Assembly (NCBI RefSeq): GCF_025151215.1
Contig: NZ_CP102286.1
Coordinates: 744,001-808,000, forward strand
Reading direction: 5' to 3'
DNA length: 64,000 nucleotides
DNA from: Parabacteroides merdae ATCC 43184
GTDB lineage: Bacteria > Bacteroidota > Bacteroidia > Bacteroidales > Tannerellaceae
The notes beneath the pieces were generated by a model. The model had not been told where the DNA came from. It saw only the letters and a program-made list of their open reading frames with translations, and searched no databases. Positions 24,886-29,818 of this stretch are shown here, piece after piece; within the stretch, counting starts at the first letter, position 1; the number at the start of each line of letters is the position of its first letter. Made by a program: the position numbers and the translations under genes.

Positions 24886-24958
24886 GACTTGGTAGCTCAG
24901 TTGGTAGAGCAAATGACTCTTAATCATTGGGTCGAGGGTTCGAGCCCCTCCCAGGTCA
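24886..24958 (+). tRNA. tRNA-Lys (anticodon CUU), copy 1
   Basis: 73-nt cloverleaf with acceptor GACTTGG / CCAGGTC and discriminator A. The anticodon stem-loop is AATGA-CTCTTAA-TCATT (anticodon CTT) and the T-arm is GAGGGTTCGAGCCCCTC. CCA is not encoded. Identical to copy 2. Confidence 0.96.
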
Positions 24959-24986
24959 CTCAATAGAAACAAAACCGACAAATATC

Positions 24987-25059
24987 GACTTGGTAGCTCA
25001 GTTGGTAGAGCAAATGACTCTTAATCATTGGGTCGAGGGTTCGAGCCCCTCCCAGGTCA
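24987..25059 (+). tRNA. tRNA-Lys (anticodon CUU), copy 2
   Basis: 73 nt, identical to the copy 28 bases upstream; both share one promoter and the terminator at 25070-25107. It borders the integrase remnant, so this tRNA is a possible old integration site. Confidence 0.96.
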
Positions 25060-25069
25060 CAAGCTAAAA

Positions 25070-25165: not shown

Positions 25166-25432
25166 CTTCGAGTATTTCCTGCGTACGAAGAAGAAATCAC
25201 CCGCCGGCGCAAGACGAACACCGAGTCCAACATCCGCCTGCTGGACGTGCCCAAGCGCATCATAGAGAAGTCCAAGTGGCTGTCCAAGGACGGTCATGTA
25301 TTTCCGGTACCGGGCAACAGTAGATGCAATGTCATATTGAAGGAACTTAGCAGGCAATGCGGTTTCAAGATACGGTTGACCTATCATGTTGCCCGGCATG
25401 AGACCGTTTCTCTCTTCGATAGTGGTGAAGGC
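25166..25432 (+). pseudogene. Decayed tyrosine-type integrase fragment
   Basis: One frame reads RRRKTNTESNIRLLDVPKRII, then DGHVFPVPGNSRCN, ILKELSRQCG and RLTYHVARHE. This is the middle of a Bacteroides conjugative-element tyrosine recombinase: the catalytic lysine of the beta-hairpin (K in RRKT) and the HxxR box (HVAR) are present. The first arginine motif upstream and the second histidine and tyrosine downstream are lost; after HE the homology stops. A start-less frame continues to 25645 without recognisable integrase sequence. It lies about 105 bp past the tRNA-Lys pair, a classical insertion location, so it probably marks an old island. The rest of the 25.1-25.8 kb gap is AT-rich and shows nothing I can name. 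Confidence 0.7.
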
Positions 25433-25796
25433 TCTCCTGCTCCCTCTGCATTGCATGCATGTACGGGTAGTTTTGCCCATATCCATGTCCGCCGGTATTG
25501 CCTGCCCTTTTCTTGGGAGAAACGGCTTATCGTAACGGGCGGCGTGACACAAACTTTTCCGGATATAGAGAAACATTCTAGAAAAAGACTGGAAGACAAG
25601 CTATTATTGGACTGTATAGCAACAAAATTATATTTTTCTCAATAAAACTAATTATTTTTTTTCTTTTTATGAATATATATGTTATATTCGTAATATGTGA
25701 AAGGTCTTTTTATTATCTAATATCTGTTAGAGTTTGTTCTACTTCGTATTTAAATAATAAAAGCAATTAAGATGAAGTTTTTTATCAATTCATATT

Positions 25797-27020
25797 TTGG
25801 TGATAATCACTCTATTGGTTTATTATCCCACATTAAAAAACGGCTTCCTTACGGGATGGGATGATCAATGGATGGTGTTCAGCCATTATACGGAAAGAGG
25901 TTGGACTGTCGATAACTTGTGGCATATCTTCACTGATTTTTATGGTGGGCAGTATGCTCCGCTTGCCTTTTTGAGCTATTTGGTGTTATATGCCGGTTTC
26001 GGCTATGATCCCTTTTATTTTCATATGTTTAGTTTGTTGTTGCATATCGGTTGTGTCTGTTTGGTTTGGAAATTAATCTCTTCCCTTCTACGTGTGCATG
26101 GAGGAGTGAGTGAAAAGCAAATTTTATATGTAAACTTTATTACAACGCTTCTTTTTGCAGTCCATCCGATTAACGTGGAGGCTGTTGCCTGGATCAGTGC
26201 GTTGAAAGTGTTGTTATATGCTTTTTTCTATCTCTTGGGGCTACTTTGTTATTTACGTTATATACGAACATCAAAGATTTTTTATTATGTATTAACGATA
26301 GGGTGCTTTCTTTGTTCTTTTTGGGGAAAGGAACAGGCTGTTACTTTTCCACTGGCATTGTTGATCGTCGATTGGTTTACGAACCGGAATATGAAAAATC
26401 TTGAGGTCTGGAGTGAGAAAATGTCGTTTCTCATTATGGCATTCTTTTTTGGAATTATTACTGTTCTTTCTCAAGGGAAAGGGCCTTATGAAATGATTTT
26501 CCCATTATATCAGCGTTTACTTTTTGGATGTTTTGCCTTAGTAGAATATATTACTAAAAGTTTGCTGCCCGTTAATTTGAATTTCTTTTATCCATTTCCT
26601 ATAGTATTGGGGGAGGAACCGCCCTTACACTATTACCTTTATCCGGTAGTGCTATTGTTTCTTATGGGGTGGATCATAGCTTATCGGAATAATCGATATT
26701 TGGTATTCGGTGTATTGCTGTTTCTTGTCAACTTATTGTTCTCAATACATCTTTTTAATATGTCTCGTCATGCCATTGTGGCCGATAGATATATGTATTT
26801 GAGTTATGTTGGCATTGCTTTCCTTATAGCAAATGGAATTTGGTGGTTGAGAAAACGATTATCTTATTTTAAAGCTGCTTTGGTCTTTCTTTTCTTCTAT
26901 TGTTTCTTTTTGTCAGTATATACTTTTCATTATACAAAAAAGTGGGAAAACACAACGATGGTGAAGAAATACACAAAAGAAGTATTAGAAAAAAGGTTGA
27001 ATGGAAGTAATCATTTATAG
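25797..27020 (+). CDS. TMTC-like GT-C membrane glycosyltransferase-type protein
   Basis: About 407 residues, ten or more membrane segments. It begins with YYPTLKNGFLTGWDDQWMV, where an acidic pair in the first outside loop is typical of GT-C dolichyl/undecaprenyl-linked glycosyltransferases. HPINVEAVAWISALKVLLYAFFYLLG, WGKEQAVTFPLALLIVDW and VADRYMYLSYVGIAFLIA match the TMTC/DUF1736-type O-mannosyltransferase pattern, but no TPR tail is present. The start is uncertain: TTG 25797 or GTG 25800 open this frame, while an ATG at 25772 lies one frame off and would join smoothly if one base were removed near 25798. First gene of an AT-rich cassette; 20 bp before the NVEALA-type peptide gene. Confidence 0.7.
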   Translation: MVIITLLVYYPTLKNGFLTGWDDQWMVFSHYTERGWTVDNLWHIFTDFYGGQYAPLAFLSYLVLYAGFGYDPFYFHMFSLLLHIGCVCLVWKLISSLLRVHGGVSEKQILYVNFITTLLFAVHPINVEAVAWISALKVLLYAFFYLLGLLCYLRYIRTSKIFYYVLTIGCFLCSFWGKEQAVTFPLALLIVDWFTNRNMKNLEVWSEKMSFLIMAFFFGIITVLSQGKGPYEMIFPLYQRLLFGCFALVEYITKSLLPVNLNFFYPFPIVLGEEPPLHYYLYPVVLLFLMGWIIAYRNNRYLVFGVLLFLVNLLFSIHLFNMSRHAIVADRYMYLSYVGIAFLIANGIWWLRKRLSYFKAALVFLFFYCFFLSVYTFHYTKKWENTTMVKKYTKEVLEKRLNGSNHL

Positions 27021-27040
27021 ACAATTAAAATTTTAAGGTT

Positions 27041-27427
27041 ATGTTAAATGGTAAAAAAATCTTATCAGTTTGTGGAGCAGTCGCTCTGTTGCTGGGTGTG
27101 GGAATGAATCTTCGGCATTCGCTGAATGATTACGGTATGGGTACTAATAGTCTAAGTACATTTGCCTTGGCACAGACCAGTTCTTCTTCCGGATCCGGAT
27201 CCAGTTCATCGGGGAGTGGATGGTTTTGGACATTAAAAGAAACGGAAACAGAATGTACTTATTCCTCAAGTCCTATTTCGAGAAGTATGTCAATTACTTT
27301 ACCTGACGGAAGTAGTGTTAGTGGTTCTATAAGTGGAGGAGATGTTATAACTTTTAAAGGTGTTTTGTGGGACTGCAAAGATGGTTGGAATCCCTTCTGC
27401 ACTAAGGATTGTAGAGCAGCGAAGTAA
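27041..27427 (+). CDS. NVEALA-type secreted peptide precursor
   Basis: 128 residues. An N-terminal leader (MLNGKKILSVCGAVALLLGVGMNL) runs to an ALA motif at residues 42-44 (STFALA), the position of the NVEALA motif in Bacteroides secreted peptides and a good AxA signal-peptidase site. The predicted mature part (about 84 residues) opens with a Ser/Gly-rich linker (residues 46-60) and ends with a compact Cys cluster: C72, C112, C120 and C124, able to make two disulfides. The family's function is not established. It lies between a GT-C-like glycosyltransferase and a propeller lipoprotein; the Ser-rich linker could be a glycosylation target, which is speculation. Confidence 0.75.
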   Translation: MLNGKKILSVCGAVALLLGVGMNLRHSLNDYGMGTNSLSTFALAQTSSSSGSGSSSSGSGWFWTLKETETECTYSSSPISRSMSITLPDGSSVSGSISGGDVITFKGVLWDCKDGWNPFCTKDCRAAK

Positions 27428-27531
27428 TAGAATGGAAGGTCCTGAATTTACTATTCTGCTATTTTAAATTTGAAGAGAAGGATTATGGTGAGTAGAAGTT
27501 TGGGTTCCTTTAACTTAAAAATTATGCAAGT

Positions 27532-28767
27532 ATGAAATTTTCTTATATTTTCCTTATCGTAATAATAGGAACATCGTTGTTTTGTTCCGGATGTCAACAT
27601 GTTTTTCAGAAAGGGCGTCCCTTTCCTTCTGTGAATTTGGATAGTGTCATGGTCGTTCCTATGCAGGAACAACAGGTTGAAATAATAACTGTTACCCATG
27701 AAATCAAAGAGCCTACTCCGGTATCACAATTGATTGAGGATTTCTACTATGTTCCGTTAGAAACGACAGAGGCTTCTTTATTTGCTTATTGTAATCAAAT
27801 AGAACTCTATGGGCACAGAATCTTTGTGTTTGATAGACATGGGACAGAAAAACTTTTCATATTTAGTGATAAGGGGAAGTTTTTGAAATCATTAGGGGAA
27901 AAAGGAGAAGCTCCTTTTGAGTTTTTCAAACCGGGATCATTCGCAATAGACCGCGAAAAGGATCAATTGGTGATATATGACAATATGAAGCAGAAATGGA
28001 TGCGATTTACTTTGGATGGAAAGTTCATCGCATCGATAGATGTCCCCTTTACTACGATATGCAATTTTCAGATCCTGCCTAGTGGGGAGTATGTAACAGC
28101 CACTCATAAAACCCGGATGAATACTCATTTGGGGCAATATGCAGATTATCGGATTTTATATACAGACAGTACCGGTGTTCTTCGAAAGGCAGCATATGAT
28201 ATTGCAGAAACCGAACACTCCGCATTGGTTTATGACCCGGTAGGGAGAAATGAGGAGGATGTTTTTTATGTTCCGATATATTTGAATGAGGTTTATACAG
28301 TTACAGACACAGCATTGACCCTTAAGTACAAATTTGATTACAGTGATTTTAATCCTTTTGAAAAAGAAAAAATGGGAGCTTTCGAAAGTTATGAAGATTT
28401 TCGTGATTATCGGTTGAGTCATACTTATGTTCACCAATATGCAGAGAATGATACGCACTTGATGTTTGTGACCAGTGATAAAGACGATTACCGTTTTGTC
28501 TCTTTTTATGATAAGCGGAGTAAAAAGTTGATTAATCTTGCTGGCTTTTATAACGATACGGATTTTGTAATGGATTTTGGAAGTGGGCTTTATAGTTATA
28601 AAGATTATTTTATGGCTTTGGTCTCGCCATCAACGTTGAGGGGATTAAAAATGCACATAGATCAGACAACTCATTATTCGATCCGCGAGGATAATAAGGT
28701 CGTGTTTGAAAACTTGAAAGAGGATGATAACTTGGTTTTGGTATTCTTTAAAATAAAGGATCTATGA
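27532..28767 (+). CDS. 6-bladed beta-propeller lipoprotein
   Basis: 411 residues. Signal peptide with lipobox (SLFCSGC, C near residue 21). The body has repeated propeller blades: DFYYVPLETTEASLFAYCNQIELYGHRIFVFDRHG, FSDKGKFLKSLGEKGEAPFEF, and AIDREKDQLVIYDNMKQKWMRFTLDGKFIASI. This is the 6-bladed propeller (BF3164/TolB-like) lipoprotein type often encoded next to NVEALA peptides in Bacteroides. The role is unknown; it may bind or display the peptide. Its stop overlaps the start of the small membrane peptide (ATGA). Confidence 0.82.
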   Translation: MKFSYIFLIVIIGTSLFCSGCQHVFQKGRPFPSVNLDSVMVVPMQEQQVEIITVTHEIKEPTPVSQLIEDFYYVPLETTEASLFAYCNQIELYGHRIFVFDRHGTEKLFIFSDKGKFLKSLGEKGEAPFEFFKPGSFAIDREKDQLVIYDNMKQKWMRFTLDGKFIASIDVPFTTICNFQILPSGEYVTATHKTRMNTHLGQYADYRILYTDSTGVLRKAAYDIAETEHSALVYDPVGRNEEDVFYVPIYLNEVYTVTDTALTLKYKFDYSDFNPFEKEKMGAFESYEDFRDYRLSHTYVHQYAENDTHLMFVTSDKDDYRFVSFYDKRSKKLINLAGFYNDTDFVMDFGSGLYSYKDYFMALVSPSTLRGLKMHIDQTTHYSIREDNKVVFENLKEDDNLVLVFFKIKDL

Positions 28768-28895
28768 AAATCAGCATGATCAATATAATAGTTTCGGCAT
28801 TTGTTTTATCAGTTACTGCCGGTTTGTTTTATTTGAATCGGCGTCCTGCTGAGAATATTGATGATGTGACATTGCTTACGTTATTTAAGAAGTGA
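28764..28895 (+). CDS. Small single-span membrane peptide (43 aa)
   Basis: Begins MKISMINIIVSAFVLSVTAG, one hydrophobic segment, then LFYLNRRPAENIDDVTLLTLFKK. The ATG overlaps the propeller stop as ATGA, a sign of translational coupling. No family recognised. The acidic DD and the hydrophobic VTLLTLF end recall the region before the NVEALA motif of small secreted peptides, so it could be a second, very short peptide precursor; this is only a resemblance. Confidence 0.55.
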   Translation: MKISMINIIVSAFVLSVTAGLFYLNRRPAENIDDVTLLTLFKK

Positions 28896-28899
28896 AAAA

Positions 28900-28974
28900 A
28901 TGAAAAAGTATCGTTTAAAATTAAGGATGAAAGGGACTGATTTTTATTTGCGCTATGTACAAAGAAAAGCATAA
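28900..28974 (+). CDS. Possible 24-aa basic peptide
   Basis: ATG at 28900 starts MKKYRLKLRMKGTDFYLRYV and ends at 28974. It is strongly basic, lies 4 bases after the 43-aa peptide stop and 16 before the signal peptidase gene. It could be a real micro-peptide or a chance frame; only its position supports it. Confidence 0.25.
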   Translation: MKKYRLKLRMKGTDFYLRYVQRKA

Positions 28975-28990
28975 AATCTATTGTTGTTGA

Positions 28991-29665
28991 ATGAGAACGG
29001 GGAAATTCATTATTGGTATTTTGCTGCTATGCTGTTTTATCCGTATGGTGATCGGGGAGCCATGTACTGTGCCTTCGGGGAGCATGGAGCCGACGTTGCT
29101 TTGCGGAGATCGGCTTTGGATTAACAAGCTGGCTTATGGTGGACGATTCCCCTCTCGTTGGGCGGATATCCCGTTGCTGAATGTCTTTACTTGGATACGC
29201 CCTCTGCGTCTTGCTGATGAAGAGAATCATTGGGAGTATCGTCGTTTGCCGGGTTACAGCGAACCTAAACAGGGGGATATTGCGGTGTTCAACAGCCCGG
29301 TAGATCCGCAATTGTTGTTGGTCAAGCGAATTACCCGGGTGGTAAAAAAAGGAGAGCCTCTTCGGATCGACCGGCGAACGCTTCTTCTTTATCGTTCGTT
29401 GATTTTGCGTGACGGAGGGAAAGTGATGGAGAAAGATGGGAAAATATATATCGATGGAAAGAGCAGCTCGCAGTATATACCCAAGCAACGCTTTTATTAT
29501 ATGGAGGGGGATAACAGGATGAACTCGCATGATAGCCGGTCGTTTGGTTTTATTTCGGAAGAGGCAATCATTGGAAAGTTCGATTTTGTTCTTTTCTCTA
29601 TCGATTCCCAAAAGCAATGGTGGAAAGCAATTCGTTTGCGACGAATGATGATGCGGTTTCCTTAA
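28991..29665 (+). CDS. Signal peptidase I (S26), accessory
   Basis: 224 residues. One N-terminal anchor (FIIGILLLCCFIRMVIG), then catalytic S31 in PSGSMEPTL, general-base K112 in LLLVKRI, and box E GDNRMNSHDSRSFGFI. This is shorter than the main Bacteroidota LepB proteins (about 300 or more residues with extra inserts), consistent with a specialised enzyme. It cleaves leaders after AxA on the outer face of the inner membrane. Placed directly behind a secreted-peptide cassette, it is the obvious candidate to process the ALA site of the peptide at 27041. Confidence 0.85.
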   Translation: MRTGKFIIGILLLCCFIRMVIGEPCTVPSGSMEPTLLCGDRLWINKLAYGGRFPSRWADIPLLNVFTWIRPLRLADEENHWEYRRLPGYSEPKQGDIAVFNSPVDPQLLLVKRITRVVKKGEPLRIDRRTLLLYRSLILRDGGKVMEKDGKIYIDGKSSSQYIPKQRFYYMEGDNRMNSHDSRSFGFISEEAIIGKFDFVLFSIDSQKQWWKAIRLRRMMMRFP

Positions 29666-29818
29666 GGTTTAAAAGATCTTCATGTCGGTATGGGTGGCTT
29701 AACCATAATCCTGCAAGAACTGCGGCTCGAATATACATAAATATCTACAACTTTCAATAAAACAAGAATTTAAAGTGAATTAAATCTAATCTTATAGTTC
29801 TTTCTGTTATCGGCCTGG

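Follow-up and report, generated by a model that had tools for sequence, protein, structure and literature searches.

Introduction

Several described systems share parts with the gene cluster studied here, which consists of five open reading frames (ORFs), all on the + strand, spanning 25797..29665 of a 64,000-nucleotide stretch of the Parabacteroides merdae ATCC 43184 genome (contig NZ_CP102286.1, positions 744,001 to 808,000; hereafter the window). The five ORFs encode a glycosyltransferase of the GT-C fold, a leader peptide, a β-propeller lipoprotein, a 43-residue product and a small signal peptidase I of family S26. The preliminary description, made from the letters of this stretch, had read them as a row of genes that could make, cut, possibly glycosylate and display a disulfide-rich peptide, and the single-strand row was confirmed.

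The NVEALA peptides (PF14055) resemble the window peptide in a leader of about 43 residues with a KK-type start, then a hydrophobic anchor, and with LA at the cleavage site, in Cys residues in the mature part, and in their neighbours, which are propellers (PF17170, PF15869) and S26 genes. They differ from the window peptide, which has an N-L-Q-Y-A/D-Y-G leader and a mature part of about 88 residues versus 36, and window-type loci have the GT-C gene in the place usually taken by a Wzy_C ligase in NVEALA arrays. No function for the named NVEALA family was found in the openly licensed literature. The passages on bacteroidetocin loci in PMC6671954 describe a small 4-Cys peptide of Bacteroidales whose locus also codes for a thiol oxidoreductase, which is the likeness drawn here, and state that general disulfide-forming machinery is absent in Bacteroides; unlike what those passages describe, the window cluster has a 44-residue LA leader, an S26 peptidase, a GT-C enzyme and a propeller. 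The short GG leader and the double-glycine-peptidase ABC transporter of bacteroidetocins are replaced here by a 44-residue ALA leader, with no ABC transporter family among the five cluster genes.

For sugar transfer, a precedent comes from the PglL O-oligosaccharyltransferases, which, in the part of PMC3643930 that treats them, are encoded next to their pilin targets. The likeness to that account is a membrane sugar transferase gene beside a likely small exported acceptor; the difference is that the window enzyme has a GT-C fold and not that of WaaL/PglL, and that the peptide is no pilin, although a protein of the Wzy_C family is encoded in NVEALA arrays. The PMT and TMTC O-mannosyltransferases and the oligosaccharyltransferase OST have the GT-C fold in common with the window protein, which differs from them by having no Pfam match, no tetratricopeptide repeat (TPR) tail and 6–12% identity in structure alignments. 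The main text of a paper on mining Bacteroidales for ribosomally synthesized and post-translationally modified peptides (PMC10352776) contains neither 'propeller' nor 'signal peptidase'. No description of such a peptide-maturation cluster was found in the openly licensed literature, including under NVEALA or DUF5128.

Results and Discussion

Linkage of the genes across Bacteroidota

A contig scan gave 39 Bacteroidota loci (L047–L085) with a GT-C protein of this family, and 38 of them had at least 1 kb downstream. L047, with 5 bases downstream, was excluded from the locus counts, and 17 weaker GT-C matches (L086–L102) were kept off the map. The 38 loci were found via the GT-C gene, their relatedness is uncorrected (L064 and L065 are near twins), and genes were called with a simple ORF heuristic. 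A propeller lay within 4 kb of the GT-C gene in 35/38 loci. As the 4.38 Mb genome of P. merdae, a single contig, holds 16 PF17170 matches, it is clear that the linkage of GT-C and propeller is far above chance. In 24/38 loci a leader peptide gene was observed no more than 600 bp downstream of the GT-C gene, and in 28/38 within 4 kb; the count becomes 32/38 with four leader-like ORFs read by eye (L078, L079, L080, L082). Linked GT-C/leader peptide/propeller loci occurred in Bacteroidales, Chitinophaga, Pedobacter and Mucilaginibacter. In the reverse direction, 12 of the 14 leader-peptide matches in other genomes of the family were within 4 kb of a GT-C match (checked by hand at E<1e-3; the own genome and G095, from another family, were excluded). 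The neighbours therefore co-occur in other genomes (propeller 35/38, peptide 28/38), as the preliminary description required.

Other partners were seen in fewer loci. A CxxC protein was encoded within 4.5 kb of the GT-C gene in 20/38 loci, a membrane fusion protein (MFP) or resistance-nodulation-division (RND) gene within 6.5 kb in 10/38, and an S26 gene within 6 kb in 5/38. Members tested against Pfam were HlyD (one MFP), AcrB (one RND) and S26 (L048, L049, L081, L085).

Small S26 signal peptidase

The gene at 28991..29665 (+) encodes a small S26 signal peptidase I paralogue of 224 residues, which matched PF10502 (4.9e-28) and TIGR02227 (98.8 bits), both over cut-off. Ser31 and Lys112 lie in segments that align with the solved LepB structure around its SGSM and IKR residues, and their counterparts in LepB are the catalytic residues. 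The short signal peptidase I with S31/K112 was thus read correctly. The own genome has a LepB-type tandem and four small S26 genes. Two of these, the window copy and a copy at 1.898 Mb, adjoin PF17170 propellers, and the other two lie in NVEALA arrays among PF17170, PF15869 and DUF4221 genes; peptides accompany three of the four.

In the own genome and 16 relatives, at least 27 of the 32 small S26 genes were within 10 kb of an NVEALA match (at least 23) or a GT-C match (4). None of the 34 LepB-type matches was within 10 kb of a GT-C match or of an NVEALA match among the matches listed, and about 1.5% of the 17 genomes lies within this distance of either (NVEALA again among the matches listed). 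The test used 66 of 103 S26 rows, 37 second-fragment rows being dropped, and NVEALA matches were present in 15 of the 16 other genomes, so that genomes without NVEALA were hardly sampled. The five small S26 genes that missed include the 1.898 Mb copy and a copy in G040, which has a weak peptide match (E 0.0145) 5 kb away. Of the 9 GT-C matches in the same 17 genomes, 4 had a small S26 gene within 10 kb. A signal peptidase that is dedicated by position is strongly supported, mainly to NVEALA arrays and to part of the GT-C loci; the private peptidase of the preliminary description stands for these arrays and for only part of the GT-C loci (4/9 matches, 5/38 loci). Since so many of the signal peptidase I genes that do not belong to the housekeeping pair adjoin NVEALA peptides or GT-C clusters, they give a direct handle on NVEALA function.

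At L081:7022-9157, directly downstream of the GT-C gene, a 712-residue protein has an S26 domain at residues 481-692 behind a membrane-type part of about 480 residues. A clustering error was considered and refuted by this true S26 domain, so that the protein, a natural fusion at such a locus, is included in the counts. Among the mapped loci, the closest match of this domain is the window S26 (36%).

Leader peptide and comparison with NVEALA

The window peptide has 128 residues. Its predicted leader of 44 residues (27041..27172, +) has a KK start, a hydrophobic anchor, an N-L-R-H-S-L-N-D-Y-G handle and ALA at the end, and the mature part (27173..27427, +) starts at Q45 and has a Ser/Gly linker followed by a Cys domain (C72, C112, C120, C124). 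Named relatives in the protein search were from Parabacteroides. Neither the peptide nor the GT-C protein had a family in Pfam, NCBIfam or PHROGs, apart from one chance match below cut-off.

Leaders of the Bacteroidales, Chitinophaga and Pedobacter relatives have in common a KK-type start, a hydrophobic anchor and an N-[LFVIM]-[QRKNH]-[YHSN]-[AS] motif; D-Y-G-like residues follow often, and the end is mostly LA or a similar small-residue site. Such a site (LA, WA, VA, AA) was found at residues 37-45 in 31/37 GT-C-linked leaders; for the 6/37 in which none was recognised a default or late site was used, and a version with a fixed cut was also run. Three short ORFs were removed from this set (L106–L108; the L106 ORF has a normal leader, followed by 14 residues) and L048 was added by hand. 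The leaders of Bacteroidales and of Chitinophaga/Pedobacter matched each other profile-to-profile with E 2e-12 (probability 97.7), while unrelated N-termini gave E 9e-4 or worse. Mean identity per region in 17 of 19 aligned peptides, the window peptide included, was 0.54 for the Cys domain, 0.67 for the linker and 0.73 for the leader.

The NVEALA layout, a leader of about 43 residues ending in LA and followed by Cys, is seen in the window peptide, with 44 residues, ALA and four Cys. PF14055 had 9 over-cut-off matches elsewhere in the own genome, and the window peptide gave no match at E up to 1. The comparison set of 45 NVEALA peptides was picked by motif from 38 loci and two arrays, matches without the motif being dropped unseen; in this motif-chosen set, 41/45 leaders had 42-44 residues. 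Similarity to the NVEALA leader profile was confined to the anchor, with E 4.1e-5 (probability 70) for Bacteroidales leaders, 4.9e-6 (86) for the others and 1.6e-6 (90) combined, while NVEALA against unrelated N-termini gave E 5e-3 to 4e-2 as a control. Because PF14055 did not match and the similarity is weaker and restricted to the anchor, the window peptide, judged by its sequence, is laid out like NVEALA and belongs outside PF14055, apparently in its own leader family (N-L-Q-Y-A...D-Y-G...LA). The term NVEALA-type is therefore right for the layout of leader, LA cut site and Cys-containing mature part, and not for family membership.

GT-C glycosyltransferase and possible glycosylation of the peptide

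The polytopic glycosyltransferase at 25797..27020 (+; 407 residues, TTG start) had a GT-C fold by AlphaFold2 model and fold search. A PDB sequence search with the GT-C alignment gave no match, and PF13231 was carried by 2/120 relatives among those listed. Residues W21-D22-D23 were invariant across 61 aligned sequences; they lie near the first helix, which is the place of an acidic motif in other GT-C enzymes. The protein had been called a TMTC-like transferase without a TPR tail. The GT-C fold and the missing tail hold (no TPR match in the 407-residue ORF), whereas TMTC/PMT family membership does not, as no Pfam profile of that family matched.

In 16 genomes, the own genome left out and only Wzy_C rows over cut-off used, a Wzy_C protein lay within 5 kb of 19/28 small S26 genes versus 0/16 LepB genes. 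By length, 0/29 shorter versus 19/30 longer Wzy_C proteins were near a small S26 gene. In G020, the three small S26 genes near GT-C genes had no Wzy_C within 5 kb. The Wzy_C protein of the own-genome NVEALA array carries TPRs. None of 100 NVEALA matches, among the matches listed, was within 20 kb of a GT-C match. The membrane sugar-transfer enzymes thus tend to differ between the two leader families, and sugar transfer is therefore proposed as part of the system.

Whether the peptide itself could be the acceptor was considered from its composition, with relatedness uncorrected in the sets compared. The median Ser+Thr fraction was 0.219 in 22 GT-C-linked Bacteroidales peptides versus 0.158 in the 45 NVEALA peptides (p 5e-5), and Ser/Thr/Gly runs of at least 8 residues were present in 12/22 versus 0/45. 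GT-C-linked peptides of Chitinophaga/Pedobacter showed a small difference (0.176, n=15, p 0.066) and such runs in 2/15. The Ser/Thr data support the peptide as sugar acceptor only in part. Genes of lipid-sugar donor type were seen in a few relatives: a GT2 gene was near the GT-C gene in 3/38 loci and in L047 (three tested members PF00535), and a PF04138 GtrA gene was directly upstream of it in L059. A second membrane glycosyltransferase-type cluster (c4) was present in 15 loci, one tested member being PF03901. Glycosylation of the peptide appears plausible on this basis, since the runs track GT-C, in Bacteroidales only, and a few relatives have donor-type genes. If these transferases do modify the peptides, common gut bacteria would have a route of protein glycosylation that serves a single small exported substrate and is encoded beside it, and such loci would be a likely source of undescribed secreted peptides.

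Propeller lipoprotein

The DUF5128 lipoprotein at 27532..28767 (+), a 6-bladed propeller, matched PF17170 with 3e-40 and 138.8 bits versus a cut-off of 22.9, and has a lipobox ending SGC at residue 21, which bears out its reading as a β-propeller lipoprotein. Acidic residues just after the lipobox Cys are the export signal for surface lipoproteins. Among 51 family propellers longer than 330 residues, 42 had a lipobox-like Cys and 1 of these 42 had at least two acidic residues just after it. Surface display, as put forward in the preliminary description, is therefore doubtful.

The 43-residue ORF and the 5' end of the GT-C gene

A second cluster in the own genome (1898466-1901398) encodes a propeller, a CxxC protein, a 157-residue protein and an S26 peptidase; identity with the window counterparts is 54% for the propeller and 63% for S26. 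No peptide or GT-C gene was seen in the 1.8 kb upstream of it. The CxxC family has a ResA/TlpA-type thioredoxin-like fold (model pLDDT 91; Foldseek best E 3e-6), and the two cysteines of the motif are the sole invariant columns among 23 family sequences. The 43-residue ORF of the window (28764..28895, +) aligns with the N-terminus of this CxxC protein (40% over residues 2-36, E 6.5e-6), and both genes overlap the propeller gene by the same 4 bp. Given this alignment, position and overlap, the ORF is most likely the truncated stump of a thioredoxin-fold CxxC membrane protein gene. In view of the match to the CxxC N-terminus, the idea of a real micropeptide was dropped, and the earlier claim of a coupled 43-residue membrane micro-peptide is very probably wrong.

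The 5' end of the GT-C gene also looks disrupted. The ORF starts with TTG, whereas an ATG upstream (25772; with its codons at 25772..25796, +, within a 30-residue ORF at 25772-25864) is in a different frame. The N-terminus is longer in relatives, and the profile match extends upstream of the TTG only by crossing a stop. P0053, the closest of the GT-C cluster representatives, has its start in the upstream-ATG frame as well. The expected N-terminus would thus be missing or out of frame.

Proposed mechanism and alternatives

As a whole, the linkage and the dedicated peptidase of the preliminary description hold, while the micro-peptide very probably falls and NVEALA membership is loose. We read the genes as a periplasmic peptide-maturation module of Bacteroidota, with a glycosyltransferase, a thiol protein, a dedicated peptidase and a propeller escort, at a probability of about 50%. 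From the observed gene content, folds, linkage and peptidase position we infer the biochemical steps as follows. The precursor would be threaded into the inner membrane by its atypical leader, in which a conserved periplasmic handle of about 22 residues follows a short hydrophobic anchor. While it is tethered, the GT-C enzyme may add a sugar from a lipid carrier to the mature part, in Bacteroidales likely to the Ser/Thr-rich linker, and the membrane thioredoxin-like CxxC protein may set the disulfides. The small S26 peptidase, kept for these precursors as its position supports, would then cut after LA and free a Gln-first peptide. The propeller lipoprotein would bind or escort the peptide in the periplasm; its export by an MFP-RND pump is a possibility in some relatives. 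As the Cys domain varies more than the leader, the product is probably secreted and used in competition or signalling. A wider version is put forward only tentatively: a widespread modular system in which NVEALA and N-L-Q-Y-A leaders each have their own transferase (Wzy_C or GT-C) and share an S26 lineage, a thioredoxin-fold partner and a propeller, to make glycosylated disulfide peptides used between cells.

The sugar step could have another target. The GT-C enzyme might modify an envelope glycan, in an ArnT-like or O-antigen-type manner, with the peptide and propeller making use of that glycan or reacting to it and not serving as acceptors. We consider this unlikely, because in 24/38 loci the start of a leader peptide gene follows the GT-C gene by no more than 600 bp and because NVEALA arrays have another membrane sugar-transferase-type family near S26. 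The role of the product is also debatable. A bacteriocin-type competition locus, with an antibacterial Cys-rich peptide and the propeller lipoprotein as its immunity or receptor partner, would fit the more variable Cys domain (0.54 versus 0.73 in the leader, 17 sequences), the tandem peptide-propeller pairs of NVEALA arrays and, as far as the passages in PMC6671954 go, the 4-Cys peptide and thiol oxidoreductase of bacteroidetocin loci; we hold it to be somewhat improbable, as a GG leader is absent, the five genes include no ABC transporter, no activity is known, and the same variability would be expected of a pheromone or envelope factor. About 22 residues between anchor and cut site is long for a signal peptidase I, and this is the spacing from anchor to LA, so that the leader might stay uncut, the peptide remain membrane-tethered and S26 act on another cluster substrate. 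This is quite improbable, given the small-residue site at 37-45 in 31/37 leaders and the tracking of both leader families by small S26 genes.

The maturation-module reading concerns the system across relatives, and the window copy may stand apart from it. That this copy is a decaying remnant with no present function is a serious possibility, though short of an even chance. The thiol gene is reduced to 43 codons, the expected GT-C N-terminus is out of frame (with P0053 beginning in the other frame), and the second cluster at 1.898-1.901 Mb has kept its propeller, S26 and thiol protein genes, while neither a peptide nor a GT-C gene was seen in the upstream 1.8 kb. Against this, GT-C, peptide, propeller and S26 retain long open frames, and close relatives are common, since the closest 90%-identity database clusters of the peptide and the GT-C protein hold 357 and 1290 member sequences, respectively. 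With a thiol stump and a disrupted GT-C 5' end, the window copy is probably impaired or decaying, and the main result is the system seen across its relatives.

Genomic setting and other observations

Two tRNA-Lys genes lie upstream of the cluster (24886-25060). The cluster begins about 700 bp downstream of them, and 25500-29700 is more AT-rich than its flanks, as for an acquired island: the 2-kb segments covering the cluster have a guanine-cytosine content of 36.0% and 39.5%, and the remaining window 40.4-50.5%. An integrase remnant suspected by eye at 25247-25645 had no match in Pfam or PHROGs and was dropped.

At related loci, an aspartyl protease (PF13650) is encoded between peptide and propeller at L064:12055-13416, and a MauE-type membrane protein (PF07291) in the GT-C cluster at L066:4879-5340. 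In a Tannerella cluster (L050:5875-6309), the GT2 and S26 genes are separated by the gene of a Thr/Trp-rich exported-looking protein of 145 residues, for which Pfam has no family. In L073 and L074 (Muribaculaceae, Leyella), MFP- and RND-cluster genes follow the GT-C gene, propellers and a CxxC gene lie upstream, and no leader peptide was found.

In the own genome, the NVEALA arrays at 3.884-3.901 Mb (L139) and 3.988-3.997 Mb (L140) are in opposite orientation about 88 kb apart, and their S26 and Wzy_C genes are identical over the residues compared, an apparent inverted duplication. Divergent from the first array is an ORF (L139:324-1361, −) with an apparent membrane segment and a weak match to Trans_reg_C that stays below the cut-off, and an ORF similar to it by eye flanks the L140 array near 3996822-3997940 (+).

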